Assembly: GCA_001910725.1 (NCBI GenBank) | Contig: MJGA01000019.1 | Coordinates: 372,001-436,000 of the forward strand | Length of the DNA: 64,000 bases | Reading direction: 5' to 3' | Origin: Phanerodontia chrysosporium | Lineage: Eukaryota; Basidiomycota; Agaricomycetes; Polyporales; Phanerochaetaceae | In this document: positions 40,317 to 62,673 of the stretch, one piece after another | Layout of the letters: each line of letters opens with the position of its first letter | Position numbering within the stretch: position 1 is the stretch's first letter | Made by a program: the position numbers and the translations under genes | The notes under the pieces: generated by a model | The model's input: the letters and a program-made list of their open reading frames with translations, nothing else | Databases searched by the model: none | What the model was told of the DNA's origin: nothing

Positions 40317-41083
40317 ATGTCCGAGCAGCAGGGTTACATGGACTTTTGCCAGACCTGCGGTGAGGTGACGCCTTGCCAATGCCTCACGGACTGCGCAGAA
40401 GATGCACCCGTGCTTCCGTACACTTCTCCATACACTGGGCGAGTGCATATGCACGGCGGTCAGGCCCAAAGGGCCAAGTACTCATTCACCAGTACGTGGT
40501 ACGTTTCAAATACCAGTGCACCTCTCATAAAAGCGTTCTAGGTTACAATACATGGCCGACATACTCTGTAGGGCACGTGCCTGCGGGCAGTCTGCAATCA
40601 TTGCACTCCCGCGGTGCCGATGGCACGGCTGCCTTGCCTGCCTATCCCTATGTTATCCCTTACAGCAATGGCTTTCCCCCTCAAGGTGATCTATTGCCAA
40701 TAGGGTACGTTTCCGCCCGAGCTTGCTGGTGCAATCTTGATGTCTCACAACTCGATGCAGACCGCCGCCTTGGGCAGAAGGACGGCCTGTCACACCGCCA
40801 CCGCAACCTCTAGACGACATCACGGGTGGGACTGTCAATACCCCACGTCGTCACCGCCGTCGTGAGCCAAACGACGACGGTTCAAATACAGCGGGCTCTG
40901 GTGACACCCGTGGTACGAAACGTCGCAGGAATACAAGGCAAGCAGGCCAGGCATCCAAGCGGCGCAATACCGGTCCTACTCATGCACCTCCCATTGCCGC
41001 GGCTCACCCATCTGTCCCTGGCGTTGGCCCTCCGACCGCGGTTCCACCTGCAACAGCGTCTGTCGATGCCGCTGTGTCTCCTG
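40317..41083 (+). pseudogene. hAT transposase, 5' part (before the gypsy insertion)
   Basis: ATG 40317 gives MSEQQGYMDFCQTCGEVTPC, a Cys-rich start, then a Pro/Tyr-rich linker. Introns: gtacgt...ttctag near 40493-40540 and gtacgt...atgcag near 40704-40760. The next exon carries RRHRRREPNDDG, GTKRRRNTRQAGQASKRRN (a likely nuclear signal) and runs to DAAVSP, where the gypsy element and its TCCTG duplication cut the codon frame. The frame resumes at 48763 on the other side. The gene is broken as it stands, because the insert lies in the opposite orientation within an exon. Confidence 0.75.
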
Positions 41084-41762
41084 TGTCGCGGAGCGAAGGC
41101 TCAACGCTTCACAAGGGAGGACAGATGGGGAGGTCGACGTCGAGGCGCGGCGGAGCGAGTCACGCAGCGACGAACACACTTGTTCAGCTGTCCGTATTGA
41201 CCAAGTGTATTAGCACTAGTAGCTACTGTACAAACAACGGGCTTACCTGTCCGTATTGACCAAGAGGTCGAGATGACGGACAGGAGCGAGGGGAGCTACC
41301 CTTATATACTACAGGTCCTTTAGGGCAGGCTATACGATTACATAAGCTGATGGGCAGCGCTCAGCATAGCCAGCGAGGCTGCGACGCGGGCTGCGCGGCG
41401 AGGCTGTGCGGGGGCTATGTCACGAGGCTGTGTCAGCTGGCAGTGTCCGAGGCTGCGTCGGGCCGAGGCTGTGTCATCAGGCTGATCAGCTCGGCGTGTC
41501 TCGGCGAGGGGAGTCATCAGGGATGACAGTGCCTCCTCGGCGATCCGGGGAACCGGTTGCAAGGCAGACCGGTGATCCGGGCAGTGTCTGAGCGCGCAGC
41601 GGGATGCGCTGGCGTCTAGGGGTGATGCGCCATCAGGGCGCTGGCGCTGAGTGTGGGCGGCTAGGACTCCAGGCGGCGCGAGGGCTGCTCGCCCGTTGGA
41701 TTAATCGAGGAAAATGGCCAAAAATCGGCGAAAAATAGGGCAGCACCGTCACATCCGTGACA
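41084..41762 (-). repeat. 3' LTR of gypsy-1
   Basis: Same sequence as 48079-48757. It contains a minus-strand TATA (TATATAAG, about 41301-41308), two copies of CTGTCCGTATTGACCAAG (41188-41205, 41247-41264) and many imperfect GAGGCTGTGTC-like units between about 41369 and 41490. Confidence 0.93.
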
Positions 41763-41800: not shown

Positions 41801-44800
41801 TCAGAGGTGACGCCCCTCCTCCCAATCGAGATCGGCCTTGGCGCGATCAGAGGCAGAAAGGTGGGAGACGTCGACTTCGGTGACGAACGGGCGAAAAGAG
41901 GCGGCGAGGGCTTCGAAGGCGGTGGCAGCGAGCTTGCGGGGCGCTTCCGGATTTTCGCGATGGAATTTGTTGACCAGAGCTTTGGCGTGTTTGAGGTTGT
42001 CTGCTTTTTCCCACGTGTCGCCGGCTTGACCGTAGCCTTTCCAGCGGACCTTGTACTGCAGTTGTCGGCGGTATATGCGGCTGTCGAGGACTTTCTCGAC
42101 GACGTATTCTTCTTCGCCGGCAACCTTGACAGGTTTGGGTGGCAGGGGCTTCTCAACGCCTTGATCGTGCCACGGGCTGAGGCGGTTGACATGGAAAACC
42201 GGGTGGATTTTCAGCCAGCTCGGGAGCTCGAGCCGATAGTCCAGATCGCCGATCTTTTCCAGAACCTTAAACGGACCCAGCTGGCGGGGGCCGAGCTTGG
42301 GCGAGGGCTGATCGATGCTGAGGTCCTTCGTGCTGAGCCAAACCTGATCGCCGACCTTGAAGGAGTGGGCGCGTTTCTTCGCGGCCTCGTACTCTTCTTT
42401 CATGCGGGCTTTGGTTAGGCGCAGGGCAGCTTCGGCCTCTTTGCGGACGTGAGCCATGCGGTCTAGGCGCTCGTCGAGAGCGGGAACGTTGGTGTGTTTG
42501 CCGGCCGGGATCGTGAAGTCCGGTGTGTAGCCGTAAACAATCTCGAAGGGCGTGCGCTCGGTAGCACTGGACACGTGTGAGTTCAGGGTGAACTCGGCCA
42601 TCGGGAGCCAATCGACCCAGTCATCTTGGCGCTGGGAGACGAAGAGACGCAGGAATTTCTCGACTTCCTGGTTCTTGCGCTCGACCTTGCCGTTGCCTTC
42701 AGGGTGATACGCCGTGGTGAGGCCGGTAGCGATGCCGAGGCGCTTGTACAACGCTCGCATGTACTGGGCTGCAAACTGGGGTCCACAATCGGAGAAGATC
42801 TTGCGTGGGAGGCCGTGGAGGCGGAAGATGTCCGTGTAGTGGACGTTGCCCATGCCGGCAGCGGTGATCGTCGAGTCGACCGGCACAAGGTGGCACTGAT
42901 CCGAATAGTGGTCCACGTAGACCGCGATCGAGTCCTTCTTGGTCTTGGCGTCACGTGGGAGTTGCGTGATGAGATCCACGCCGACGTGTTCCCAAGGCCC
43001 TGAAGGGACGTCGTGGGGCTGTAGGGTGGCTTTCGGATGCGGGGCGGACTTGTACCGTTGGCATTGATCGCAGCCGAGCACGTAGCGGCTAACGTCGGCG
43101 GAGATGCGTGGCCACCAATAGTACCGAGAGACCAACTCGAGAGTGGTGTGCTTCCCAGGGTGTCCGGCGGTCGGCGCGTCGTGGCAAGACTTGATGACGT
43201 CGTTGCGCAGCGCGGCACTGTTCGGGACATAGACTTTCCCATGGTAGTACAGAAGGCCGTTGTCCTCTTCCCATTCGAGAACGCCGTTGCGCAGCTTGCG
43301 GGGCCCCTTGGTCCGGAGAGTCTGTAGGGCGTCTGCGACTTCCTTTTCCTTTTCGGAGCATTCGCGAATGCGCTTCTCGAGGGGGGAGGGGTTTGCGAAA
43401 GCTACCGTGGCGGCTATCTTAAACAGCTCCGGCTTCAACACTATCTGCGAGCGGTTGTCCTCTTCGTCAGAGACATGCAGCGAGGAAGGCCGGGAGAGCG
43501 GGTCGGCGAGGAGATGGGTCTTGCCAGGGCGGTGGATGATGCGGAAGTCGTACTCGGCGAGGTAGGAGGCCCATCGGGCTTGTCGCCGTGTGAGATTCTG
43601 CGCAGTCTTCCAGTACTGGAGATTCTGGTGATCGGTCCAGATCTCAAAAGGCTCCGGGAGACCTTCGAGGAACTGGCGCCAGTCCTTGAGAGCTTCGATG
43701 ATTGCAAGCATCTCGCGGTCCCAGATCTCGTAGTTCCGCTCGGCGGGGCTCATGGTCTGCGAGCGATACGCGATTGGATGCCAGAGACCATCTTCAGGGT
43801 TGCGTTGGGCTATGACTCCTCCGGTGGCGTAGCCAGAAGCATCGGTCTCGACGCGAGTTGGCCGATCAATGCTCCACATGGCGAGCACGGGCTGAGTCGT
43901 GAAAGCGCGCTTGAGCGTCTCGAAGGCTTCTGCCTGTGCGGGACCCCAATTAAACGGAGTGTCCTTCTTCGTCAGATCGTGCAACGGGCGGCAGATCTTT
44001 GAGAAGTCCTTGATGAAACGGCGATAGAAATTGGCGAACCCGACAAAGCCTCGCACGTCTTTGAGGTTCTTCGGGGTCGGCCACTCGGCTACTGCCTTAA
44101 CCTTGCCAGGGTCCATGCCGACTTGTCCTTCGCTGATGAGGAGCCCAAGATACTCGATCTCTGAGCGCTCGAACTCGCACTTCTCGGGCCGAAGGTACAG
44201 ATCGTACTTGGCGAGGCGTGCCAGGACCTCGTGAACAATCTTCCGATGCGAAGCGAGATCGTTCGACCAGATGAGGATGTCGTCGAGGTAGACTGCGACC
44301 TTGCTTTCGGCGATGAGGTCGGCGAAGATGTGATTCATGAGGGCCTGGAACGTGGCAGGGCTGTTGCACAGACCGAAGTACATAACTCTGGGCTCGAAGA
44401 GACCGCGGTTGGTGACGAAGGCAGCTTTCCACTCGTCACCTTCCTTAATCCGGACGTTGTTGTAGCCCCAGCGGACGTCGAACTTAGTGAAGATCTTAGC
44501 GCCCTGGAGCTTCCCGATGATGTCGGAGGCGAGCGGAAGGGGGTACCGATTCTTCACGGTGATGTCGTTGAGCTTGCGATAGTCCTGAATGAACCGGAGC
44601 TTGCCGTCCTTTTTCTTGATGAAGAACACGGGCGAGGCGATCGGAGACTTGCTGGGGACGATGTAGCCCTTGGCGAGTGCGTCGTCGATAAACCGCTGCA
44701 GCTCTTCGTTCTCGATCGGGGACATGGGATAAACCTTCGATTTGATCGAGGCCGGGGCGTCCGGGACGAGATCTATCGCGTGATCCCAGGGCTGATGCTT

Positions 44801-45565
44801 CGGGAGACGGTGCGATTCCTCTTCAGAGAACACCTTCTTGTGTCGGTGGTACTCCTTGGGAACCAGTTCTTCGAACGTCTTGGCATACTTCTCGCGATTG
44901 GCTTCGACAGCGATCGCTTGCGAGTAAGTGTAGCCGGCGAGGATCCAGACTTCGTCCTTGGCGTCCTCAACAATGCCTGCCCGAAGCCATTCACGGCGTT
45001 CGGAGCGGTTGGCGTCAATCTGGTGTATGCCGAAAACTGGGGTGTCCTCAACTCCGCCGCGGAGCTGAAACTGGACATCTCCCGTTTCCCAGTCGATGTT
45101 CGGATTCCATTTCTTGAGCCACGGAAGTCCGAGGATGACGTTCTCGGGACCGATGTTCGTGACAAGAAACTCCTCCTTAAACGTGTACGAGCCCACAGTG
45201 AGCTGGAGTCTGGCACGACGTGTGATAGACCCTGCTTCATTCTTGGTTCCGTCGATGTTGTATAACGTAATTTCCCTTTTGAGTGGTACCGTGAGAATCT
45301 TATGCTGCTTGCAGAAGTCTTCGTGAATGAACAGCGAAGTCGCACCGGAGTCAATCATTGCGGGCGTGCGAATAGTTTTATTGATCCCGGTGAGCTTTAC
45401 TGGTACACGGTAGTGATTCGAAAAAGGGTCTAATACGGATATTGTACACGAGCGGATAGAGTCCGAAATGTCCTGTGGGTCTAACGAAGGCGCCGGAGTT
45501 GAATCCGGGCTTGACGAAACGGGGACCGACGATGCGGCGTCACTCCGGCCCCTTAGGCAAAACCC
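41801..45565 (-). CDS. pol: gypsy-1 Pol (protease, RT, RNase H, integrase, chromodomain)
   Basis: Retrotransposon polyprotein. The frame is open from the slippery site at 45565; the first internal ATG is 45358 and residues are counted from it. Protease DSGA at 4-7. RT: TKFDVRWGYNNVRIKEGD and the active site YLDDI near 356. RNase H: VETDASGYATGG near 501 and LLADPLSR with the last Asp present. Integrase zinc finger H-x3-H...C-x2-C from AGHPGKHTT to GCDQCQRYK near 724-770, then the catalytic triad in GVDLITQL, FSDCGPQFA and YHPEGNGKVERKN. A GPF-type module (LGPRQLGPFKVLEKIGD) precedes a chromodomain EEEYVVEKVLDSR...VRWKGYGQAGDTWEKADNL near 1080. It has no ATG next to the Gag stop and is -1 to Gag, so it is made as Gag-Pol. 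Confidence 0.95.
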   Translation of the reverse strand, partial: GFCLRGRSDAASSVPVSSSPDSTPAPSLDPQDISDSIRSCTISVLDPFSNHYRVPVKLTGINKTIRTPAMIDSGATSLFIHEDFCKQHKILTVPLKREITLYNIDGTKNEAGSITRRARLQLTVGSYTFKEEFLVTNIGPENVILGLPWLKKWNPNIDWETGDVQFQLRGGVEDTPVFGIHQIDANRSERREWLRAGIVEDAKDEVWILAGYTYSQAIAVEANREKYAKTFEELVPKEYHRHKKVFSEEESHRLPKHQPWDHAIDLVPDAPASIKSKVYPMSPIENEELQRFIDDALAKGYIVPSKSPIASPVFFIKKKDGKLRFIQDYRKLNDITVKNRYPLPLASDIIGKLQGAKIFTKFDVRWGYNNVRIKEGDEWKAAFVTNRGLFEPRVMYFGLCNSPATFQALMNHIFADLIAESKVAVYLDDILIWSNDLASHRKIVHEVLARLAKYDLYLRPEKCEFERSEIEYLGLLISEGQVGMDPGKVKAVAEWPTPKNLKDVRGFVGFANFYRRFIKDFSKICRPLHDLTKKDTPFNWGPAQAEAFETLKRAFTTQPVLAMWSIDRPTRVETDASGYATGGVIAQRNPEDGLWHPIAYRSQTMSPAERNYEIWDREMLAIIEALKDWRQFLEGLPEPFEIWTDHQNLQYWKTAQNLTRRQARWASYLAEYDFRIIHRPGKTHLLADPLSRPSSLHVSDEEDNRSQIVLKPELFKIAATVAFANPSPLEKRIRECSEKEKEVADALQTLRTKGPRKLRNGVLEWEEDNGLLYYHGKVYVPNSAALRNDVIKSCHDAPTAGHPGKHTTLELVSRYYWWPRISADVSRYVLGCDQCQRYKSAPHPKATLQPHDVPSGPWEHVGVDLITQLPRDAKTKKDSIAVYVDHYSDQCHLVPVDSTITAAGMGNVHYTDIFRLHGLPRKIFSDCGPQFAAQYMRALYKRLGIATGLTTAYHPEGNGKVERKNQEVEKFLRLFVSQRQDDWVDWLPMAEFTLNSHVSSATERTPFEIVYGYTPDFTIPAGKHTNVPALDERLDRMAHVRKEAEAALRLTKARMKEEYEAAKKRAHSFKVGDQVWLSTKDLSIDQPSPKLGPRQLGPFKVLEKIGDLDYRLELPSWLKIHPVFHVNRLSPWHDQGVEKPLPPKPVKVAGEEEYVVEKVLDSRIYRRQLQYKVRWKGYGQAGDTWEKADNLKHAKALVNKFHRENPEAPRKLAATAFEALAASFRPFVTEVDVSHLSASDRAKADLDWEEGRHL

Positions 45566-46803
45566 CCGAGCTGCTTTTGTATCAGAGCCAGCTGATCACG
45601 GAGGGCGGCGATCGCGGCAGCTTGGTCGTCAGACGAGCTGCCAGAAGACGAGGAGGCCGGAGACGAGGAGTCCTGTGACGAGGTATCCGAAGACGAGGCG
45701 CGGACAGCGGCGGTAGCGGGGGCGGTTCTCGGCTTGCCCTCGAGGTGGGCACGACAGACGCGGGACCAGTGACCCTTCTTGCCGCAGTGGTTGCAAACCG
45801 AGTCACGGTGCACGGGGTCCGTGGACTTGTGGGACTTCGAGCCGCAGACCTTGCAGCGGTCCTTCATGACGGCGTCGAACTGGCGCTTGAGATCCGTGCC
45901 GGTGAGACCCTTAAACAGCTCGTCGATGTTGGCGGCGTCGATGTCCATCGCGTTCGGGTCGCGGAAGGCGCGCGTCGACGAGCTAGCCGGAGTCGAGGAC
46001 GTCTTTCCTTGCTGTGCCAGGAGGTCTTGCGAGAGCTTGTCCTTTGACCGGTCGACGGCGAAACCCGCGTTCTTGAGCTCGTCGTACGTCTCGGGGCCTT
46101 TGCCGGTGGCGGGGTTGACCATGTACGATATCCGTTCGAGGTAGTCCTTGTTGAACTTCGTCCGTAGCCGGGCTGCCAGGTCTTCCGGGGTGAGCTTCGT
46201 GCGGCCGGCGAGGGCTTGGAACTCCGCAAAGAACTCCGCGAACCGACGATTGCCTTGCGTGCACGCCTGTAGCTTGCTGAGGGCCTCGGCTTTCTCGTCG
46301 ACGGGCTCGAACCGGTTCTTGAAGGCCTCCCAGAATTGGGTGCGGGAACCTCCGAACAACTGAGTGCCGTCTGCTGCCTGTTCGATGTACTGACGTGCCC
46401 ATTCCGCCGCTTCATCCTGCATGAAGGAGAGAGCGCCGACGATCCACTTCTGGCCGTCTACCAAGATCTTGCCGGTGTTTGCGTCCCGCTCGAGGTTACC
46501 GTTGACGTCGCGCTTGCCGAATTTCTCTGGTTGTCCATCGGCGTAGATGCGATAGGCGGCGCGGAAGAGTCGGGCCGTGTCTGAACCCTTTCCTTTGAAC
46601 GGCATGGGCTTCTCGACGAAGGGGAGCTCCTTGTTGGCATTGACCGTTGCGTTGACCGTTGTCCGATTGGCGCCAATAGTCTGGGCCAGAGTGTTAACCG
46701 TGTTTGTAAGCTGCGTCATCGCCTGGGCCATTTGCAGGAGGGCAGCAGAAACGGGGTCGGGAGGCGCCGGACCGGGCGGCGCTCCACCGGGAGTGCTCGA
46801 CAT
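45553..46803 (-). CDS. gag: gypsy-1 Gag
   Basis: 416-residue capsid/nucleocapsid protein. ATG 46803 (context AATATGT, A at -3) gives MSSTPGGAPPGPAPPDPVSA. The capsid region contains KPMPFKGKGSDTARLFRAAY, WIVGALSFMQDEAAEWAR and FKNRFEPVDEKAEALSKL, the pattern of gypsy Gag. A zinc knuckle CNHCGKKGHWSRVC (C-x2-C-x4-H-x4-C) follows, with an upstream CKVCGSKSHKS, then a Ser-rich linker. The stop TAA at 45553-45555 lies just after a -1 frameshift heptamer. This ATG is the first on the sense strand after the predicted RNA 5' end, 1466 nt away. Confidence 0.93.
   Translation of the reverse strand: MSSTPGGAPPGPAPPDPVSAALLQMAQAMTQLTNTVNTLAQTIGANRTTVNATVNANKELPFVEKPMPFKGKGSDTARLFRAAYRIYADGQPEKFGKRDVNGNLERDANTGKILVDGQKWIVGALSFMQDEAAEWARQYIEQAADGTQLFGGSRTQFWEAFKNRFEPVDEKAEALSKLQACTQGNRRFAEFFAEFQALAGRTKLTPEDLAARLRTKFNKDYLERISYMVNPATGKGPETYDELKNAGFAVDRSKDKLSQDLLAQQGKTSSTPASSSTRAFRDPNAMDIDAANIDELFKGLTGTDLKRQFDAVMKDRCKVCGSKSHKSTDPVHRDSVCNHCGKKGHWSRVCRAHLEGKPRTAPATAAVRASSSDTSSQDSSSPASSSSGSSSDDQAAAIAALRDQLALIQKQLGGFA
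45559..45565 (-). promoter_or_regulatory. Probable -1 ribosomal frameshift site between Gag and Pol
   Basis: Heptamer G-GGT-TTT in the Gag frame, i.e. XXXYYYZ with X=G, Y=T, Z=T, one codon (GCC) before the Gag TAA. Slipping one base back enters the Pol frame, open from here to the protease. The downstream stretch is GC-rich (GGGGCCGGAGTGACGCCGC) and could form the stimulatory structure; not folded here. Confidence 0.7.
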
Positions 46804-47233
46804 ATTGGGGGGACGGGGAGTGTTGGCTCCTGATTGAGCGCGGGAGAGGTAAAACGGTGAGGGAGCGGGTTCGTGGTCGGAGAGGACGGAGCCGAGCGAT
46901 GTCTCGGGAGACGAGTGGTGGCTGCTGTCCGGGGGACTGTGATCGGGAGTATTCGGAGTGGTAGCAGAGGCGCAGGCGAATTCTAGCCGTTGCGCGAAAT
47001 GAGGGCGTTCGAACTGTGTTTCTCGGTCGCTAGGCGGAACCGGGAGTAGCGGAGGGGCAGTCTCTCGATAAGGGCAGGGCTGCTGACTGCACTCCCTGGC
47101 TTCTCGAGACCCGTTGTTTTCCTCGACGTGGAGATCAGCGGGAAGAGTGACGCCGTTCTCTGTGGTTCGCCCGAAGAAGTGCGGACAATTCGAACAGTCG
47201 AAATCCAGAGCGACAGAAGATGTATTTTATAAA

Positions 47234-47984
47234 CTACTCGAAATACCCGGCCCGATACACGATGTCTAATTCTCCCACGATGCGGCGGAAGTTGCGCCTT
47301 AAACCGATGAACGAAATGTCACCAATTTGAGCTAGTCCAAGCTCGTATTGATGCCACTCCTTAAACGTGGTGGTGGGGGCAAGGCGGCTGAGCTCGGCGC
47401 GGATCTGTTGGAGGCGCTCGATCAGCTGACAGACGCCGCGCGCGTGGTCGCTGTTGATGAGGTGGAAGAGGTCGACTTCTTCGACAGCCTTGAGACGCTT
47501 GATGGTCGCGTCGAGCTTAGGCGTGAAGATGCCGACGAGGTCGGTGGGGGAATACTTGGGGATGTCGATGCCGACAGGCTTGCGGGCGATGGGCTCGTAC
47601 GTCGGGGCGGCGCTGAGGCGCTCTGCCAAACTGAGCTTCGAGGAGGAGGCGGCTACGGCGGCCTGGGCTTCTTGCGCCTCTCGTTGGCGCTGCTCGCGGA
47701 TACGGTTGCCTACGCGTTGTTCGGCCTCACGAGCCTCGCGAACGGCAGTCCAGTTGATGGAGGGGACGGAGGGCGGAGGCTGGGGGAGCGTGGAGACGTA
47801 CTTGATGACCGCCTTAACTTTGCGGTCCGTCCACTTGACAGGGTTACCGGCCTCGCGACGACGTTGGAGGCGGTCGAAGATGCGCTGGGGGATGTGGTCC
47901 TTGAGCCGGACGTCTTTCGGCACTGCGAAGCAAGGACCTCAGCAACGTGCACGGAGTGAGCAGGCTGCTCGACTACGACGTACT
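47234..47984 (-). CDS. gypsy-1 leader ORF0, start codon created by splicing
   Basis: 229 residues, function unknown. The frame is open from 47922 but has no ATG. A canonical intron, donor gtacgt at 47983 and acceptor tcgcag at 47923 (61 nt), joins exon-1 base A (47984) to TG (47922-47921) and makes ATGCCG with G at -3. The product begins MPKDVRLKDHIPQRIFDRLQ, then a charged helical stretch (EAREAEQRVGNRIREQRQRE, AQEAQAAVAA), PIARKPVGIDIPKYSPTDLV, CQLIERLQQIRAEL and ends VYRAGYFE. There is no Met after the first, no Cys knuckle and no membrane helix. Its frame and stop (47234) separate it from Gag. Alternative: a non-coding or accidental frame in the leader; its length and the exact splice argue against that. 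Confidence 0.6.
47923..47983 (-). other. 61-nt intron in the gypsy-1 leader
   Basis: GTACGT donor and CTTCGCAG acceptor, the same border style and size as host introns in this window. A TGCTGAGG-type branch-like site lies about 15-18 nt before the acceptor. Removing it creates the ORF0 start codon. Confidence 0.6.
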
Positions 47985-48066
47985 CGCTTTAAACGGAGGG
48001 AATAAACTTTTTTAAACGGTATTTTGGGGGAGCGGTAGGGAAGGAATTGCCTAGGGCACCCAAGAG

Positions 48067-48076
48067 ATCTCGACCT
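48067..48076 (-). other. Self-priming-type primer-binding site of gypsy-1
   Basis: Two bases inside the 5' LTR the RNA reads AGGTCGAGAT, the exact complement of ATCTCGACCT at 48269-48260. That segment starts 34 nt after the first T of the TATA box, i.e. at the predicted RNA 5' end. Tf1/sushi-type chromoviruses prime in this way, with 5' RNA folding onto the PBS. No match to a tRNA 3' end (starting TGG) is found at this position. Confidence 0.7.
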
Positions 48077-48078
48077 AA

Positions 48079-48757
48079 TGTCGCGGAGCGAAGGCTCAAC
48101 GCTTCACAAGGGAGGACAGATGGGGAGGTCGACGTCGAGGCGCGGCGGAGCGAGTCACGCAGCGACGAACACACTTGTTCAGCTGTCCGTATTGACCAAG
48201 TGTATTAGCACTAGTAGCTACTGTACAAACAACGGGCTTACCTGTCCGTATTGACCAAGAGGTCGAGATGACGGACAGGAGCGAGGGGAGCTACCCTTAT
48301 ATACTACAGGTCCTTTAGGGCAGGCTATACGATTACATAAGCTGATGGGCAGCGCTCAGCATAGCCAGCGAGGCTGCGACGCGGGCTGCGCGGCGAGGCT
48401 GTGCGGGGGCTATGTCACGAGGCTGTGTCAGCTGGCAGTGTCCGAGGCTGCGTCGGGCCGAGGCTGTGTCATCAGGCTGATCAGCTCGGCGTGTCTCGGC
48501 GAGGGGAGTCATCAGGGATGACAGTGCCTCCTCGGCGATCCGGGGAACCGGTTGCAAGGCAGACCGGTGATCCGGGCAGTGTCTGAGCGCGCAGCGGGAT
48601 GCGCTGGCGTCTAGGGGTGATGCGCCATCAGGGCGCTGGCGCTGAGTGTGGGCGGCTAGGACTCCAGGCGGCGCGAGGGCTGCTCGCCCGTTGGATTAAT
48701 CGAGGAAAATGGCCAAAAATCGGCGAAAAATAGGGCAGCACCGTCACATCCGTGACA
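48079..48757 (-). repeat. 5' LTR of gypsy-1
   Basis: 679 bp, TG...CA ends, identical by eye to the 3' LTR. TATA (TATATAAG) at 48296-48303 on the minus strand sets the RNA start near 48270. R/U5 carries the direct repeat CTGTCCGTATTGACCAAG at 48183-48200 and 48242-48259. Confidence 0.93.
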
Positions 48758-51700
48758 TCCTGCCCCTACACAACGTGTCTACGGCTCCCTGCGGCGCCAG
48801 AGTATTGATGTCACTGACTCAGATTGGCGTGCAACACATATATGGCCATTTATGCACGCCTTGAAACCTGAAGATCAGGCCGAAACGACCCCGCAAAACA
48901 TCCCAACCTTCACCATAACCCTGCCGCCACCAGCTGAGGCTATGAAGAAGCCTGACTCGAAGATATACAGCCATATTGTCTGTAAACTCTGCACGACACG
49001 GTATGTGCCTCAAGCAGTCGTCTACTGCATCTGATCTCAGTGTACCTGCAGAATACCACCGCGATGGCACGTCTGGAAGAACAAAGTCTCCGGGCAGCAC
49101 ACAGCAATCAAGGAGCACCTCCAGATCCATCATAAGCACGAGTGGGAGGACGCTGTCTTGCGCCATCACCTCAAAGGTTGGGAAGAGATTGCACGGCAGC
49201 AGCAGGAGAAGGCCCAGCCTGGATCTGGACAGGTTGCGTGTCCCAACGACAACACTTCGGTTGAAGCGCTTCTATTCTATCGTCTTTCGACTGAGAGGTT
49301 CTCGGTGCCAGGTCTGCGTGAGCGGCTGGTCCGCTGGGTTGTCACTGATGACCAGGTATAGTCTTCATTCATTCTGCATTGCTGCAGTCTTACTGACGTC
49401 GTTCTGCAGTCTCTCCGTGTGGTCGACAACATTTTCTTTCGTGACCTCATCATGTTTGCTGTCGGGCTTGACAGGCTGCCACCGACTGAGCTGCAATCTG
49501 TCATCCCACGTCGAACAGCATTCACTGAGCTCGTGATCAAGACGTACGAAGCCCAACTGCAAAAGCTGATTGTCACTCTCAAAGTAAGCAGTATCTCATC
49601 AATTGCGAGGGCGACGCTGACAATATAACAGCGTAGTTTGGGCAGGGTCTCGTTCACGTCGGATCTTTGGACGACGGGAATGTTACGAGGCTTCATGGCA
49701 GTTACGGTGCACTGCATCACCCGAGAGATGGGAAAACTCGTCATGAATTCCGAATTGGGCGCCTTGCGATATGTTCGTGGGGCGCACTCGGGAGAGCACC
49801 TAGCTAAGGTGTTCTTGGACGTTCTCGAGAAGCTGGAAGTGCTTGACCGGGTAAGAAATCAGTCAGTAGCATTGCCCCGTGATATTCTCTGACTAGTCCT
49901 GTATCCCAGATTGGACTGATCACCGTCGATAATGCGAGCAACTGCGACACGATGCTTGAGCATCTTGAATACCTTCTCAATGAGAAAGGTATCCCATTCT
50001 CGCGCTCTGGTAACCGCATACGGTGCGCCATCCATTATGTCTCCGTTGTTTTAGCTCATTCTCCCACATAAATGTAGCTGCTTTCCGCACGTTGTGAACC
50101 TATGCGTCAAAGCTGGCCTTGATGCTCTGTCGGACAGCGACAAAATTGATGCGCTTGAAGCTGAGCTCCGGGAAGCTGGGCAGTTCACAGATGCCGACCA
50201 CCAATATCTCGATACGCTGCGTACCGATCTTATCGCGCGTACCCGCACGTTCATTACTGATGCTCGTGCTTCGGGTCTCCGACGCGAGAGCCTTGAGGAC
50301 AAGATCATAGAAGCGAATGAGCGTGGTGCATTCGGGCCTGGGCGAACACTGCCATCTGGCACTGCACTTCTCCGCGACATGGATGTACGCTGGTCATCAA
50401 CTTACCTCATGGTCGACCGGTTCCTCGAGGTTTCACCGGTATGTGTAATCATCATTGAGTTACCTAGAAAAAGTGCGCTTAGTTGCATTGCTAGGCCCTC
50501 AGGTTATTCGTTTCCGAGCCTCAGAATGCCGCACTAGAGTCCAAACTTCTCAGTGACTACGAGTGCGGCATCTTAGATGACATACGATACTATCTAAACA
50601 GCCCTTTTAGCGTGCAGGAGTCCCTCGCGACAGAGTACGCAGCGACCATATCACTCATGTTCCCAGCGTACGACACGCTTGCGCAGCTGCTCCAAACCCT
50701 GCCAAAGCTGCCGAAATGCCGCCTGCTTCGCCATGCAACAACTGCCTCATATGATAAGCTGCAAGACTATTACGGCAGAATGCGCGAAAACAAGGTTTGC
50801 GCTCTAGCGATCTGTATGTAATACAAACTCATACCATTTATTCCTTGCTAATGTCTGCCCACAGTGCTCAATCCAGCCCTCAAATTACAATGGCTCGAGA
50901 CACATTGGTCCCGGGAAGATGCGTACCAAGCGAAGGAAAGCCTCCTAGAAGCGGTGAGCCTCTATTCAAAGCCTGGTGTATTCAATCTTCCCTGACTTAT
51001 GCACACAGATGCTGGAACACCTAACTGCAGCACGGTTACGTGTGTCAGAATCGACTGCTGAAGGTCGCCGAACAGCGCCACTGAGCCGCTCTGGTAGCCT
51101 CTCCAATAACGAGAAGGCCACGGCTTCACTGTCTCGCAGCTGGCAGACCTTCACGAGTCTGCTAAAAACGCTCTCGCAAGAGCTGGAGAAGACCGGTTCC
51201 CAAGATACCAACACCACGGATGCAGAGCCACGGAATGCTGATTGCGCTGACCGTGACCGTTTGCGTGCACGAGAGCAGCTCGATTTGTACCTTGCGGAAC
51301 CATGTGTGGCTCTCGAGGACCTTGATCTGCTTGGCTACTGGGAAGTAAGTCTGCTCCGTTACCTTCCCTTCATTTCGCCCTGGCTAATTCTGAATATTAG
51401 GAGCACGAAGCCAAGTTTAATTTGGTGTTCCCCGTTGCGATGGACATACTTCCTATCCAGGCCTCGGCAGTTGCGTGTGAACGCATCTTCTCCTCCGCCA
51501 AAGAGACCGATACACTTCGCCGCCGTCGCATGTCCCCGCGCCTCATGGAAGCTCTCCAATTCCTCAAGCACCACTTTGCACGCCAGCTGGGCCGAAAAAT
51601 CGACTACCTCATCCACACAGTCTCCGTTGTGCGCAAAGAACTTTCGGACTTCGTCGTTCACCTGGAAGATGACATAGGTACAGGATTCTCTATGGCACAT

Positions 51701-53335: not shown

Positions 53336-53760
53336 TGTAAGGGCCTGGCGCTAACCCTTACCCTTTTCGACGACAGGACCTCGTGGCGCTGATGCCATCG
53401 GCGCGCCCGCCCGCCTTGTCGGTCTGGGCCTCGCGCCCTCTTCGCGCCCCTGTGTTTCGTATTTCTTTCTTTTATCCCATTTCACACCCCTCTGACTCCC
53501 TTCGCCTCCTTCTGACTCGGTAGTAACTTCGTTTCGGGCCCTGCTCGGTCCCTCCTCTCTGACTAGGTATCTGGGTAGGATATATATAGTGTAGAAAAGC
53601 CTGGGTGTACGGCAGCTTCTCGAGAATCGAGACCTTCCCCACTCTATCCTCGTCTGAACTTCTCGACCTCCCGAAGTCTCATCCTCGAGGCTCAGCAAGT
53701 AACTGCAAGACTCACCGATAACTCGACTTGTCTAGCGCCTTACATAAGCGGAGCCTTACA
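53336..53760 (+). repeat. 5' LTR of gypsy-2
   Basis: 425 bp, TG...CA ends. TATATATA at 53581-53588 predicts RNA start near 53610-53615. No ATG lies between there and the Gag ATG at 53885, though this is only about 270 nt. Confidence 0.92.
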
Positions 53761-53884
53761 TTTTTTGAGTGTCTTTTTCTCTTCTCGATACACTATCCCC
53801 CTACCCTACCGCTGTTCGGACTGATCACCCGAACATTCCTCTCGTTCGTGGAATTTTATTTGCATTTTTATAGGTACCTACAAC
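53761..53884 (+). other. gypsy-2 leader
   Basis: T-rich leader after the LTR. No convincing primer-binding site: it does not start TGG, and only a 7-nt complement to the RNA start was found, 25-30 nt away. Confidence 0.4.
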
Positions 53885-56800
53885 ATGGTGAAGACCTACA
53901 AGAAGGATCAGACCACGGCCTCGGTCGGTGGTCCCCAGGTCTCACATCTCGCTAGAGACTCGCAGGTCGAGACTCGCGAGCAGGTTGCGCACGGCGCGGA
54001 TGTCTTGTCCGCGAGCGCTCCTATCCTATCTGTCACCCCCGTCGATGATGCTTCTGAAGCTTCCTTGGCTCGGCGGTGGGGTGTTCAGGATTCTGAGTAC
54101 GCCGCCATCACTGGCAGAGCGACTCGACGTGCCCATCGCTATGCGAAAGCTAGCGGCCCGGCGGGGGAGGCCCCGCGTCCGGATGGAGGGCGTACGTTGA
54201 CGGGAGGGCGCCAGAGCAAGCCAGCTCTTAAACAGGCGACCCGTCCTAAATCTCAGGAGCCTGCCTATCCGGCTGCGCCTCCTTCGAGTCCTGTAGATAA
54301 TTCTGCAGTAGTTCATGACGGAAATTCCATGAAAGCGCTTACCTGGTGTAACTTCCAGCCTGGCCGGATCGTAGAGACGTCCTCGGTTGATTCCAAAGGA
54401 TGGCAAACGGTTAGAAAGCCGGCTCGACAGGCGACGGTGCAAGTCTACGCACCTATTCCCGTACAACCTTCTCGCTTCCTGCTGCCTGATTGGTTTGAGT
54501 TGTGCGAGAATCGTACCGCAGAAGATGATTTTGGTCCCATACCGGCGTCCTGGGCAACAGATACTGTTCCCGTCAAGGACGATACCCCCCGGCTGACCTA
54601 TAATCTTGAGGAGTTCGATCCCGCCATAGACTCAGATGACGAAGTCGAACAACTGCTGGAGGCTCAGCAAGAATCCCGGGTATTGTACAGTCAAGCACTT
54701 ACCTGTCATAAACCCGGCCAGTCTTCCGCCCCAGTTATGGCAGTAATTGTAGAGGTCGATGAACCGGAGGATGATTTGGCTTCCAAGGGCAAGGGTGTTG
54801 ATCCTAAAGAACGAGGACCCGATTATCATGAATTTCTGAGGCAGTTCGTCGCCAAAGAACCTCCCTCCAGGGCAGATAACACTCCTCATCAGTCGTCCCC
54901 TAGCCACGGCTCTACACACCTGTCATCACCAGTCACCCCCCGATCTTACCAACGCGACAGTTCCGAATTGCCCGCAGGAGGATGGTTCCGAGCCAGCGTC
55001 GAGGCTGATGATGATGGTGGATCCGATGGCACGCCGCCTCCTAGCTTGTCGTCCGGCGACGATGATGGTTCTTCCAGTTCGAGTGACTCTTCCAGCGACC
55101 AATCGTCCGTTTCTGGCTCCTCAGAGACGTCCTCCTCTGCGCAAGAACAACCAGGCGAGAAGGTACGGAAGACGGAGTCGAGGTCACGCAAACAAGCAGA
55201 AGCTAGGAAGAGACAGCGTGAAATTAGGCGCGCCATGAAGGGCGTGAAGATCAAAACTCCTTTTATCTACGATGGCCAGGCTGACATCGACGTTCTCGAC
55301 CACTGGAGCTACGAAGTTGATACCTGGGCTGAACTAGTAGGGCTCAAAGATAAGGACCATCTGGTACTCAAAGTCATAGTGAATTATATGTCTGGGAAAG
55401 CCAGTAAATTCTTTATGAAACATGTCTCTACACGGCAGCACAAGTGGACGGTCAAGCAATTGTATAAGGGTCTTTTTGACTATTGCTTCCCGCCAGACTA
55501 CAAAGAACGCCTCCGTTTGAAGCTCGAAACCGCTACCCAAGGTCGTCGAACCGTGCGCGACTTCGTTCGTGATCTCGAGACTCTAGCCGTGCGATTCCCT
55601 GACGTTACCTCGCGTCAGCTTACTGGAATCTTTTGGAAGGGGACTCACCAATATATACGTAACTATTTGCGTGAGAAGGGCCTTAGCCAGGAGTTGACCA
55701 GCCTTGAACGGCTGGTCAAGTATGCTGAGCGACGGGAAACGTCCTATGAAGCGCAACAGCGTGAGGAGCGTGAATTCAGTGGGAAAATACCTGGACGAAC
55801 CTGGGGACGATTTACCAGCCGCGACGGCCGCGCGGAGCCATGGCGACCGTCTGATTCTTCTCCGAATGCCCCTAAACCTCGACCTTCAGGTAACGCGACA
55901 CGTTCAGACCTTCCGAAGACCCCTAGTTCGCGACGCGCGACCCCCACAGGCTCCCAGACCACTAACCCGCAGTCTCGCCGTTCTCATACACGCACCTATA
56001 CCAAAGAGGAATTAGACCATATGCGTGCCGAGAACATGTGCTTCAACTGTAAGGAACAGGGACATACCTCCCGTAACTGTCCTAAACGACAGACCGCCCG
56101 TGCCCCTCACGTACACACAGGTACGGTGCGCATTGACGGTCTTGACGACCTCGCGCGAGAGCGTGATCGCGTCGATGGTATTCATGTCAATAGCATCCGA
56201 GTCCCCTTGCGTGAATTAAACAACGAACCTAATCCTGACAACCGTTGGTTCCAGGTTGACCCTCGGTATGCCATTCCCGAAGTTGAGGCTTGGTGTCTGG
56301 CAGCCGTTGACCCTGCGGAAGCAGTTCGGTGTGAGATTGCTGTCCGTGCTCGCTTCGTTGCGTACCACACGAGCTCCGTCTCGTGGGCTATCCTGGACGC
56401 TGTCATGCCCTTGTTATCCTATGAGGTCACCCTCGAGGAACTACAGAATGGCATCAGCTTCCAAATGGTACAACGTCGCGCGATCAGGGCAGCAGAAGAC
56501 TCACGGGTGGTCCGATCGCTCGCCGAGTCTATTTTCTATGTCCTCGAACGCGACGAGCCCTCTGACTTGAACGCAGAAGCGCGTGTCCACCTGGCATTAA
56601 TCCCTGGCGGTTACTGCTTGACCGACTCGGTCAGCGGGCAGTCCTGTTTCATCGACTGGAGCCTCGCGCACCCTTCGTCGCCTGCAGATTATGACAATGA
56701 ACGGTTTGCGCACCTCCCGTTTGCTCTCGCCGAGTCCGCTGAGCTTAACCACCGATTGGTCCGGGCGTTTGGTCGTGCCTTTGCGCAGCGTCTTGATAGT

Positions 56801-57727
56801 GAACCCGTTGTGACGCCGTCTGTCGCGCCTATCCAGGGCGGGTTTCTTGTATCTATACCGATGTTTGAGTTTTCAGTGTTTATTAGCCATAGCACCGCTA
56901 TTCTTGGCTCGTTCAACGCACCTGAAATCATAGATGATCTCCTCTGGGAGCTTGAATGTACCCAGGAGAACAATGCGCGGCTCGAACGACGGCGTCGCCG
57001 GCGACACCGCCTCCTCCTGGGTGCTGTCCGTCCACGTCCGCGTGGTGGCGCAGCCCGCACCCGCACACCTCATGCGGAGGGCGTAGATGCTCTTGAACGA
57101 AACGCTTCGAAGACTGTTGATTTCCGACGCAACCTGCCGAAGTTATTAGTCATTGAGGTGCATGTGAACGGCTCACCTGTGCGTGCGCTGGTGGACACTG
57201 GTTCTATGGCCGATTTCGTCTCCACCACCCTGGTCGACCAGCTCAAGCTTTCGACCTCTGTGCTCGCAAAGCCGCTTCCGCTACAGCTTGCCGTCCATGG
57301 CTCCAGGTCAAAGGTAAATTGTAGTACTACGGTGCAATTTGCGTACCAGGATATCGACGGTCCCCGTCGATTTGACGTCGTCAATCTTGACAACTATGAC
57401 ATGATCCTTGGTACACCCTGGATCTATCAACACCGTGTGATGGTGGGGTTGAATCCTATGCGCATCGCGGTCGGGTCAGCGCAGCCTCTACCGATGCGAG
57501 GTGAGGATGTGACATACATCTCTTCTGCGGTCGCTGAACTCGTGGAAGACTGCCTTGAGCCCTTGCGTGCGCAGCTCCGCCGTGAAGCATCAGACCTTTG
57601 CCCTGATACCGCTCTCACGGCTTTGCCGCCCTTACGAGCTGTCAATCATACGATACCACTGATTGATGATTCGAAGACTTACTCGTGGCGGCCCTCTAAG
57701 TGCGCCGAAGCACTGAAGCCTGCCTAG
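53885..57727 (+). CDS. gag: gypsy-2 Gag-protease
   Basis: 1280 codons to a TAG. ATG 53885: MVKTYKKDQTTASVGGPQVS. A long disordered, Ser/Pro/Asp-rich front (residues about 1-450) precedes the capsid block IKTPFIYDGQADIDVLDHWS...ASKFFMKHVSTRQHKW...LRLKLETATQGRRTVRDFVR. The zinc knuckle CFNCKEQGHTSRNC is at about residue 717. The protease carries ALVDTGSMADFVSTTLVDQL near 1102 and DMILGTPWIYQH. The last residues, TYSWRPSKCAEALKPA, are the beginning of the RT domain, so the TAG falls inside the RT and not at a protein border. Confidence 0.9.
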   Translation: MVKTYKKDQTTASVGGPQVSHLARDSQVETREQVAHGADVLSASAPILSVTPVDDASEASLARRWGVQDSEYAAITGRATRRAHRYAKASGPAGEAPRPDGGRTLTGGRQSKPALKQATRPKSQEPAYPAAPPSSPVDNSAVVHDGNSMKALTWCNFQPGRIVETSSVDSKGWQTVRKPARQATVQVYAPIPVQPSRFLLPDWFELCENRTAEDDFGPIPASWATDTVPVKDDTPRLTYNLEEFDPAIDSDDEVEQLLEAQQESRVLYSQALTCHKPGQSSAPVMAVIVEVDEPEDDLASKGKGVDPKERGPDYHEFLRQFVAKEPPSRADNTPHQSSPSHGSTHLSSPVTPRSYQRDSSELPAGGWFRASVEADDDGGSDGTPPPSLSSGDDDGSSSSSDSSSDQSSVSGSSETSSSAQEQPGEKVRKTESRSRKQAEARKRQREIRRAMKGVKIKTPFIYDGQADIDVLDHWSYEVDTWAELVGLKDKDHLVLKVIVNYMSGKASKFFMKHVSTRQHKWTVKQLYKGLFDYCFPPDYKERLRLKLETATQGRRTVRDFVRDLETLAVRFPDVTSRQLTGIFWKGTHQYIRNYLREKGLSQELTSLERLVKYAERRETSYEAQQREEREFSGKIPGRTWGRFTSRDGRAEPWRPSDSSPNAPKPRPSGNATRSDLPKTPSSRRATPTGSQTTNPQSRRSHTRTYTKEELDHMRAENMCFNCKEQGHTSRNCPKRQTARAPHVHTGTVRIDGLDDLARERDRVDGIHVNSIRVPLRELNNEPNPDNRWFQVDPRYAIPEVEAWCLAAVDPAEAVRCEIAVRARFVAYHTSSVSWAILDAVMPLLSYEVTLEELQNGISFQMVQRRAIRAAEDSRVVRSLAESIFYVLERDEPSDLNAEARVHLALIPGGYCLTDSVSGQSCFIDWSLAHPSSPADYDNERFAHLPFALAESAELNHRLVRAFGRAFAQRLDSEPVVTPSVAPIQGGFLVSIPMFEFSVFISHSTAILGSFNAPEIIDDLLWELECTQENNARLERRRRRRHRLLLGAVRPRPRGGAARTRTPHAEGVDALERNASKTVDFRRNLPKLLVIEVHVNGSPVRALVDTGSMADFVSTTLVDQLKLSTSVLAKPLPLQLAVHGSRSKVNCSTTVQFAYQDIDGPRRFDVVNLDNYDMILGTPWIYQHRVMVGLNPMRIAVGSAQPLPMRGEDVTYISSAVAELVEDCLEPLRAQLRREASDLCPDTALTALPPLRAVNHTIPLIDDSKTYSWRPSKCAEALKPA

Positions 57728-60700
57728 CGTGATAAGAAAGATGCTTACCTGCGTTCTGGCCGTTGGCGGATCGTCTCCGCTACTAATGCACTTCCGTTGC
57801 TCATTATCCCGAAGCCGCCGAAGCAAGCCGGCGACCCGCCGCGCATTCGGTGCTGCGTGGATAAGCGTGAGCAGAATGCCAATACACGGAAGCTCGCCGC
57901 GCCCCTACCTGACATCGACGCCATTCTGCGCAACGTCACGCGCTGTCGGTTCCATTCCCTTATCGATGGTGTTGATGCTTTTGAACAGATTCGCGTCGTC
58001 CCTGAGCATGTGAACCGAACGGCGTTCACCACTCCTGACGGCACAATGGAAAGCCTTGTCATACAACAGGGTGACTGCAATGGGCCTGCGACTTACCAGA
58101 CTCTGATGAACCACATATTCGCACCCTACCTTGGCGTCTTCATGGACGTTTATCTTGATGACATTGTCATCTATTCCGATTCTGCTGAAGAGCATATTCG
58201 CCACATCAGACAAGTCTTTGACGTTCTGAGACGAGAGAAACTTTACCTCAGCCCGGACAAGATGCAGTTCTTCGCGTCGCGCCTCAAGATCCTCGGCCAT
58301 GTCATCGACGAGCACGGTATTGTTATGGACCCTCACAAAGTTGATGCGGTTGTCAACTGGAAGGTTCCGACGAACAAGGGCCTGCTCAGTAGTTTCCTCG
58401 GCGCGGTTGGGTATCTCGCACCTGACTGTCCTGGTATCCGGATCCCCATGGGTGTTCTGGCACCCCTAACCGGCTGTAAGAAAATGTGGAGTTGGACTGC
58501 AACTCACCAGCGTGCTTTCGACGAAGTCAAAGCAGTGGTTCATCGCTGGCGTGACCACCACCGCGTGGCGCTTGATTATACCGCAGGCGCCCCCGCCATC
58601 AACCTCGTCACCGACGCGTCCCTGACAGGCGCCAGTGGGTATGTCTGCCAGGGTGATGACCTCGCCTCTGCCCGCGTAGTCGCATTTTGGTCCGGTAAGT
58701 TTACCTCAGCCCAACAGAACTACGCTGTCCACGAGCAGGAATTACTTGCCGTCATTGAATCCCTCAAACGGTTCCGAAACCTTTTGCATGGTACGCACTT
58801 CCGTATCTGCACAGACCACAAGGCTCTGGAGTTCCTTACCCATCAGAAGCACTTGTCACCACGCCAATGTCGCTGGTTGGACGTTCTGAATGAATTCGAT
58901 TTCACTATTCGCTACATCCCAGGCAATACCAACCACCTCGCGGGCGCTTTGTCCCGCATTTATAGCGATGAACCCGCAGGTGTGGTACGTGCGCCATCCG
59001 AATATGTCTCTTCTGATGCCGATGACGGACAGACTCACCCTGATTCGTTACGCCGCGCGCTCACGGCTGCAAGCCCTGTCTATACGGGCGCGGCCCTGCT
59101 TGCTTCGGCCGAGATCAACACTCGCCCCCGGCGTGTGAGCCACCAGCCTGGCTATTACCGGGAGTTACTCATCAACGGGCGCCCTGACCCTCTGTCAGCA
59201 TCGTCCTCTGCCCCAGAGCTCCCCTCTGCCCGCACTGGTCCTCGTCGTCGTGGACGACGCTCTGAGCCGACTGCTCCACGTTCAACACGCTCTGCCTCTC
59301 CCACTACGGCCTCTGAGCTCCCTCCTTCATCCCGCGATAGCTCCGGCTCAGTAGACGCCTTGCTGGCAGATGGTACCGCCGTTGACGACATCCCTCCAGA
59401 CCTTTTGGACCCACCAGCCGCTTCAATCGCTTCCTCCACGCCCCCTTCTTTGGCGCACTCTGGCGGCGATGATACAGTGCTCTCCATGACATCGTCTCTT
59501 TCCAATGGGACCACTGGCGGTGCTCTCCCGCGCCCACTCCAGCCCGATTTTTCGGGCCTTGATCTTGTCGACCTGGTACGTGGCTGTTATGCTGAAGATC
59601 CCTTCTTTCGTCCTATTCTGACCCACCCTTCTGACTTCAAAGGTTTTTCTGTTGATTCAGGCCTTATCTTCTGTACTCGTACCGATACTTCTCCTGTACT
59701 TTGCATTCCCGACGTCCTAATCAATGGCCGTGCCGCCCGGGAGCTCGTTATCTCCCATGCTCACTCCCTGCTCGCACACCTTGGCTCCCGTAAGACCACT
59801 GAATACCTGCGAACTGAGGTATGGTGGAAAACTCTCGTCGCTGATGTCAAGCTTTTCTGCTCTAGCTGTGGGGTGTGCGCCACCTCCAAATCCCCTACTG
59901 CGCGCCCTATGGGACTTTTACGGCCTCTCGAAGTCCCTCGCCGGCCTTGGGAATGTATTGGTATCGACTTCGTTGGCCCGCTTCCTGCCTCTTCTAACCG
60001 TCTCGGTGAGTTCGATATGATCTGCGTGGTCATTGACCATCTCACCTCGATGGTTCATCTTATTCCTACACGACAGACCTATCGCGCTGCCGACATTGCT
60101 GACGTCGTGTTCGAACAGGTCTACAAACTTCATGATTTGCCTGACCGCATAGTCAGTGACCGTGATACACTCTTTACCAGCACCTTCTGGCGACGTCTCC
60201 ATGAACTTCTCCGCACGGAGCTCCGTCTCTCTTCCGCTTACCATCCTCAAACTGATGGAGCCACCGAACGGGCTAATCGGACGATGACACAAATGCTTCG
60301 CCAATGTGTGTCTGCTGATCAGACTGACTGGGTGTCCCGCCTGCCCGCTATCGAGTTTGCTATGAACTCGGCTCGCTCTGACACCACGGGTTTCTCGCCG
60401 TTCTACCTCAATTATGGCCAGAATCCTCGTGCCCTTCCGTGGCAGGTCAATACCCCTTATCCTGGTGTTCGTGTTTTCGCGGAACGGATGAAAACCGCGA
60501 TCATGACTGCCCATAACGCTATCATTGGCGCACGGGTCCGCCAAGCCGTCCAGGCCAATAAGCATCGCCGCCCGGCCCCTTTCCGGCCTGGCGACCTGGT
60601 TTATCTCTCGACGGCTAATTTGCGCCTCCCGCGCGCACGCGCTCGTAAGTTGGTTCCCAAGTTTCTCGGACCGTTCCGGATATCAGCTGAACTTGAGTCT

Positions 60701-62182: not shown

Positions 62183-62238
62183 ACTCGGTGCGTCCTCCTC
62201 CTGCCGTCTCCGCTCTGAGCCTTGCTGTTTGCAAGTCT

Positions 62239-62248
62239 GGAGGGCGAA
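62239..62248 (+). other. Polypurine tract of gypsy-2
   Basis: GGAGGGCGAA, purine-rich with one C, immediately before the right LTR. Confidence 0.6.
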
Positions 62249-62673
62249 TGTAAGGGCCTGGCGCTAACCCTTACCCTTTTCGACGACAGGACCTCGTGGC
62301 GCTGATGCCATCGGCGCGCCCGCCCGCCTTGTCGGTCTGGGCCTCGCGCCCTCTTCGCGCCCCTGTGTTTCGTATTTCTTTCTTTTATCCCATTTCACAC
62401 CCCTCTGACTCCCTTCGCCTCCTTCTGACTCGGTAGTAACTTCGTTTCGGGCCCTGCTCGGTCCCTCCTCTCTGACTAGGTATCTGGGTAGGATATATAT
62501 AGTGTAGAAAAGCCTGGGTGTACGGCAGCTTCTCGAGAATCGAGACCTTCCCCACTCTATCCTCGTCTGAACTTCTCGACCTCCCGAAGTCTCATCCTCG
62601 AGGCTCAGCAAGTAACCGCAAGACTCACCGATAACTCGACTTGTCTAGCGCCTTACATAAGCGGAGCCTTACA
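62249..62673 (+). repeat. 3' LTR of gypsy-2
   Basis: 425 bp, same as 53336-53760 apart from one base seen (C at 62617). Confidence 0.92.

Follow-up and report, generated by a model that had tools for sequence, protein, structure and literature searches.

An AUG-free leader with putative introns and a probable non-AUG Gag start in a self-priming fungal Ty3/gypsy element

What keeps 1466 nt of RNA ahead of a retrotransposon Gag free of AUG in every frame? The question arises in a 64,000-nt stretch of the Phanerodontia chrysosporium genome (the window), where a self-priming Ty3/gypsy element with a chromodomain has recently inserted on the minus strand. The 5' LTR (48079..48757) and the 3' LTR (41084..41762, preceded by a polypurine tract) are identical over 679 nt and are flanked by a TCCTG target duplication (41079-41083 and 48758-48762). 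Gag and Pol follow in the chromovirus order, with Pfam matches to Retrotrans_gag, protease, RVT_1, RNase H, integrase and Chromo (4.8e-14). Read from its first AUG, Gag has 416 aa (45553..46803, minus strand), with a Retrotrans_gag domain and a zinc knuckle, and its named relatives come from Phanerochaete. The Pol open frame (41801..45595, minus strand) encodes protease, RT, RNase H, integrase and chromodomain in that order. It opens 43 nt before the Gag frame ends (45553-45595), in a different frame, and this overlap suggests that Gag-Pol may be made by frameshifting.

Leader nt n lies at window position 48270-n, and all features of the element given below are on the minus strand. A TATA box (TATATAA, 48297..48303) precedes leader nt 1 by ~30 nt, and its TATATA is intact in 83 of 84 copies. 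Leader nt 1-10 (ATCTCGACCT, 48260..48269), the predicted RNA 5' end and self-primer, are complementary to the primer binding site (PBS; AGGTCGAGAT, 48067..48076), which begins 2 nt past the LTR; both 10-mers are exact in 80/84 copies, the arrangement of self-primed elements of the Tf1/sushi type. From this 10-nt match, reverse transcription is predicted to be primed by a cleaved 5' fragment of the RNA. The TATA box and the self-primer match are the sole basis for the predicted RNA 5' end.

To compare copies, we used the upstream open reading frame of the leader (ORF1) as a query against the 39.0-Mb genome, which gave at least 151 matches, fragments included (150 of 222 candidates were scored). 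We analysed 90 loci; 84 have the full leader, and six were dropped as incomplete (L031, L033, L034, L036, L041 and L042). Finer counts use 79 copies, a set chosen by outcome, as L032, L035, L043, L049 and L050 were set aside largely for their many sense ATGs. The copies are related and their ATG counts are not independent events; we therefore counted distinct sites as well.

In the window copy, the leader (46804-48269) has no sense ATG and 20 antisense ones, which bears out the none and roughly twenty of the preliminary description. The ATG-free run extends over 1535 nt (48338..46803); no other run in the window, whichever the strand, exceeds 675 nt. Zero was reached in none of 5000 dinucleotide-preserving shuffles of the leader (mean 7.8, sd 2.4) and in none of 2000 mononucleotide shuffles (mean 14.4). 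Taken separately, the parts of the leader give a weaker signal than the whole: with 1000 shuffles of each, zero was reached 87 times for nt 1-286, 10 times for ORF1, 158 times for the supposed spacer ahead of Gag and every time for the putative intron 2. The U3 (7 sense, 6 antisense) and Gag (12 and 8) of the same element show no ATG depletion, and in the leader the near-cognate codons, taken together, show no strong depletion either (CTG 20 sense and 26 antisense; ATC 27 and 6).

The same asymmetry holds across the 84 copies, which together have 106 sense and 1723 antisense ATGs (medians 1 and 20). Copies with many sense AUGs, which the preliminary description had named as the case that would speak against selection, do exist; they are limited to the decayed L035, L043, L049 and L050, which hold 41 of the 106. 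Of the 84 copies, 32 have none. L035, L043 and L049 carry 16, 11 and 10 sense ATGs and are apparently rich in C-to-T changes, which seems to resemble methylation or RIP-like decay.

One segment departs from this pattern. Over 84 copies, nt 29-87 contain 50 sense and 39 antisense ATGs, and the rest of the leader contains 56 and 1684. In the 79 copies, the sense/antisense counts are 0/0 for nt 1-28, 45/38 for nt 29-87, 0/219 for nt 88-286, 0/26 for intron 2, 13/1047 for ORF1 and 4/268 for the spacer. Outside nt 29-85, these 79 copies have 15 sense ATG sites, none common to three or more copies, and 76 CAT sites, 45 of which are common to at least three; inside, 3 of 5 ATG sites are common to at least three.

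The leader is almost certainly under selection against AUG. The proposal that this selection serves scanning to Gag is well supported because the depletion spans coding and non-coding parts, and because no sense ATG site outside the putative R intron described below is common to three or more of the 79 copies; what has to be amended is the destination, as a CUG start is probably served as well as the Gag AUG. Gag might instead be made without leader scanning, from an internal promoter, an IRES or by shunting, with base composition or protein constraints accounting for the missing AUGs. The leader is indeed C-rich, and by eye nt 1038-1048 form a TATA-like stretch, in which many copies have indels. 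Given the shuffles and the strand asymmetry, the spread of the depletion over coding and non-coding parts, and the sense ATGs regained in decayed copies, we find this explanation barely credible.

The window also holds a second gypsy element on the plus strand (53338-62672), with LTRs placed by eye at ~53338-53761 and 62249-62672 and open frames at 53825-57727 and 57728-62182. In this element, 493 nt without ATG precede the Gag ATG at 53885.

Judged by its signals, the exempt segment in R is very probably an intron (intron 1, 59 nt, leader nt 29-87, 48183..48241). ACAG precedes its opening GTAAGC, CTAATR occupies nt 62-67 and ACGGACAG closes it; between the conserved ends, the sequence is hypervariable and contains indels (mean variability 0.33). 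The segment would be exempt from AUG depletion because it is spliced out ahead of scanning; with the intron retained, uORFs of 2 to 89 codons would start at its ATGs. Both this intron and the putative intron 2 have GT, branch and AG signals of the fungal kind that are conserved among copies, measured against a thin yardstick, as one clear host intron passed our filter (53 nt, GTAAGT...CTGAC...CAG).

LTRs that lack exactly this intron occur at 9 places in the genome; by comparison, exon 1 plus the donor is matched with at most 3 mismatches at 377 places, some of which may be intron-less. Two of the 9 are the LTRs of the L021 element, which lie 6942 apart and are without exactly intron 1. Another two, which carry a TTG variant, flank L065 at 14 kb, and we take them to belong to a single element that has a further insertion nested in it. 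The two elements fall in separate clades, next to intron-bearing sisters (L006 and L071), and by eye the decayed copy L042 is another intron-1-less case. Loss of intron 1 can equally come from DNA deletion between two 18-nt repeats, described below, followed by copying. At three LTRs (G000 C58:1459586, C76:168009 and C124:915334), GACAGATA stands where GACAGGTA is found elsewhere, a change of the intron-1 donor G to A.

A transcription start downstream of nt 87 would likewise yield an exempt segment, with nt 29-87 outside the RNA, free to carry ATG, and no intron 1. We consider this very unlikely: the TATA box is placed for a start at nt 1, self-priming needs nt 1-10 in the RNA and these match the PBS exactly in 80/84 copies, and a downstream start explains neither the conserved GTAAGC, CTAATR and CAG around a hypervariable middle nor LTRs from which exactly nt 29-87 are missing.

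If the segment is an intron, reverse transcription of the spliced RNA should erase it, and a repeat in R offers a possible way of keeping it. Exon 1 ends in an 18-mer (CTTGGTCAATACGGACAG, nt 11-28, 48242..48259), of which the final 18 nt of intron 1 (nt 70-87, 48183..48200) are an exact copy; nt 11 is the first base past the 10-nt PBS match. In self-priming, the primer is a 5' piece of the RNA (PMC4600332). Here, the RNA would be cut at nt 10 and strong-stop DNA would end at nt 11; made from spliced RNA, this DNA could pair, starting at nt 70, with a 3' R that has not been spliced, and its extension would copy intron 1 back. The step would require an unspliced 3' R that extends past nt 87, and it would both maintain the intron and keep the two 18-mers alike. 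Restoration through the repeat is the most speculative part of our model, and we hold it tentatively, at a little under even odds. A narrow search of the open-access literature found, in the titles and abstract openings it covered, no description of an LTR element whose start codon arises by splicing, or of an intron in R that a repeat serves to restore.

Downstream of R lies ORF1 (47234..47922, stop 47236-47234), which would encode 229 aa if intron 2 is removed and has no internal Met. The preliminary description had listed a 229-codon ORF here, and it proves to be a conserved gene under purifying selection: dN/dS is 0.109 over 2775 pairs, variability at codon positions 1-3 is 0.029, 0.019 and 0.122, and the frame is intact from a GTG in 75/84 copies (229 codons in 61, 241 in 14). 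It also has 11 metagenomic homologues at 46-77% identity, one of them short (P0011). That ORF1 is coding is as good as certain. Met is absent from 69 of the 75 intact copies, and none of the 11 homologues has an internal Met, compared to 5-16 in each of 14 Gag homologues; ORF1 would be without Met because it is located within the scanned leader. Coding seems to stop short of the region above the GTG, since 47 of 84 copies carry a one-base indel 7 nt ahead of it. About 12 extra residues (RSAATPPPNAP-like) follow ORF1 residue 5 in 14 of the 75 intact copies and in homologues P0001-P0007, and the window's subfamily is without them. A figure legend in PMC2864245, which concerns fungal gypsy elements, mentions an 'additional ORF with unknown function'. 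ORF1 contains an RLQRRR stretch, and a CERV- or Rev-like role for it is a guess by analogy.

How would ORF1 be started? A putative 61-nt intron 2 (nt 287-347, 47923..47983; GCGA/GTACGT ... GCTRAG ... GCAG/TGCCG, with slashes at the splice sites) lies directly upstream. Its removal would join an A at 47984 to the TG at 47921..47922, yielding GCG AUG CCG AAA GAC in frame. The A preceding the donor is present in 84/84 copies, the GTACGT positions in 82-84 of 84, the CT and A of the branch CTRA in 84/84 (R is A in 43 and G in 41), the acceptor CAG in 84/84, and the T and G after it in 84 and 83. The 14 key positions have a mean variability of 0.0017; placed at 135 offsets in nt 88-286, the mask averages 0.075 and never gives so low a value. 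This test is partly confounded by the general conservation of the first half of intron 2, much of which is invariant. At the protein level alone, 9 of the 11 ORF1 homologues begin with MPKD, at the spot where the splice would place the AUG. Unspliced RNA, with intron 2 retained, stays AUG-free ahead of Gag; the zero sense ATGs of intron 2 are consistent with its retention in scanned RNA, given few chances for any (shuffle mean 0.0 in the window copy). Among the copies of the element in the genome, we found no processed copy without intron 2. Two other donors for ORF1 were rejected: GGACAG/GTAAGC, which yields no AUG when joined to the ORF1 acceptor, and TTTGTACA/GTAGCT, which is weakly conserved (nt 47-49 are variable).

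ORF1 could also be translated by leaky scanning only, from the GUG at nt 347-349 of unspliced RNA, with no intron 2 and with splice-like motifs that are coincidental or serve another purpose. In rice tungro bacilliform virus (RTBV), translation of the first ORF begins at AUU, and ORFs I and II are AUG-free (PMC5902531); near-cognate starts are used by fungal cpc-1 (PMC5487733). The GTG is retained in 83/84 copies with a purine at -3 in 84/84, and the missing intron-2-less copy fits this reading too. However, the +4 base is C rather than G, and the donor A/GTACGT, the branch CTRA and the invariant CAG before TG are left unexplained. A GUG start is therefore unlikely in our view, and the AUG of ORF1 is probably made by splicing out intron 2.

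The rest of the leader had been taken for a 430-nt spacer, which it is not: it encodes a 135-residue N-terminal extension of Gag (46804..47208). Triplet periodicity in the Gag frame runs across it, and its dN/dS in that frame is 0.258 (135 codons in 66 open-frame copies, with 18 of 84 excluded because of decay or of frames that were shifted or too short), or 0.197, 0.418, 0.213, 0.063 and 0.115 along the stretch. The other two frames (46 copies) give ratios of 2.6 and 2.1. The coding status of the extension can scarcely be doubted. Its length is a multiple of three in 73/84 copies; given the 11/84 that are out of frame, it may be dispensable.

The extension quite probably starts at a CUG, to judge from conservation and context. 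This CTG (leader nt 1062, 47206..47208) stands in the context GCTCTGGAT; RNNCTGG is present here in 81/84 copies and TTG in 2, and one-base indels occur directly upstream. It is the sole RNNCTGG site in the window copy, and 53/84 copies have a second at nt 1020. An in-frame extension under protein selection, together with a conserved CUG in good context, is what characterises glycoGag-like proteins. At the protein level alone, a distant relative (P0019) has an extension that starts MDC and shares QPCPxR, and the predicted Gag of P0014-P0016 begins MSGQNTP, matching QSGANTP just ahead of the AUG of the window element. An AUG-started Gag seems to be needed too, since the stretch from the CUG to the Gag AUG avoids AUG. 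The last stop of the Gag frame lies at or after the ORF1 stop in 62/84 copies (in 35 it is the same codon) and upstream of it in 22. As the stops fall in many phases with no fixed coupling, fusion of ORF1 to Gag by frameshift or readthrough was rejected as a general route, though it may occur in the 22/84 copies with an upstream stop.

The AUG depletion, the exemption of nt 29-87 and the coding status of ORF1 and the Gag extension are read directly from the sequence. The model that we build on them has a probability of roughly 65% in our estimate. Full-length RNA would be kept AUG-free up to Gag, and scanning ribosomes would reach it. The 59-nt R intron would be cut out of the Gag mRNA and the remaining leader scanned, with part of the ribosomes initiating at the CUG at nt 1062 to make a 551-aa Gag and the others, by leaky scanning, at the AUG at nt 1467 to make the 416-aa Gag. 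Additional removal of the 61-nt intron 2 would create an AUG at the splice junction and allow translation of ORF1 (229 aa); its retention would turn ORF1 off, making intron 2 a switch. The idea that one RNA combines three hidden starts (a splice-assembled switch codon, a CUG for long Gag and an AUG for short Gag) with an R intron rewritten at the first strand transfer, via an 18-nt repeat that starts where the self-primer ends, is attractive and, taken as a whole, rather doubtful. At any rate, the leader is no untranslated spacer, as it holds ORF1, a non-AUG Gag extension and two likely introns, of which the one in R is exempt from the depletion.

The element offers a natural test of scanning: its copies within a single genome are numerous, and the predicted intron is the sole stretch in which they are permitted AUGs. 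Three things would follow from the model: a gene would be switched by a start codon that splicing creates, fungi would have a Gag akin to glycoGag, and a retroelement could retain an intron despite the loss expected when spliced RNA is reverse-transcribed. AUG-dependent gene callers would overlook ORF1 and the Gag N-terminus.

The nearest functional precedents are leaky scanning in RTBV and glycoGag of murine leukemia virus (MLV). In RTBV, ribosomes scan through 900 nt of AUG-free ORFs after the AUU start (PMC5902531). RTBV and the badnaviruses, like our element, have long upstream ORFs without internal AUG; they also have leaky scanning, a start codon other than AUG and one further protein made from spliced RNA (PMC5902531), all of which our model proposes for the fungal element. 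By analogy, ribosomes are predicted to bypass a weak start here to reach the main ORF. Unlike RTBV, the present element belongs to fungal Ty3/gypsy and not to Caulimoviridae, the AUG of its ORF1 is probably splice-made, and a putative R intron lies ahead of ORF1. MLV glycoGag initiates at CUG and is likewise an in-frame N-terminal extension, with its CUG in a good context upstream of the Gag AUG (PMC5778647), although its extension has 88 residues (PMC5120145) compared to 135 here, and our fungal element is without known env. An AUG-free N-terminal extension with near-cognate starts such as CUG is also described for fungal cpc-1, Agaricomycetes homologues included (PMC5487733); cpc-1, however, is a host transcription factor gene and not a mobile element. 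With Tf1/Tj1-type self-primed chromoviruses, the element shares a PBS complementary to its own RNA 5' end (PMC4600332). It differs from them in its putative R intron and in a repeat that starts right after the primer. To our knowledge, neither is a feature of Tf1. Finally, the putative spliced expression of ORF1 resembles that of CERV in Cer1 of C. elegans, where the accessory protein is made only from spliced RNA of the LTR retrotransposon and the genomic RNA keeps its introns (PMC10309623).
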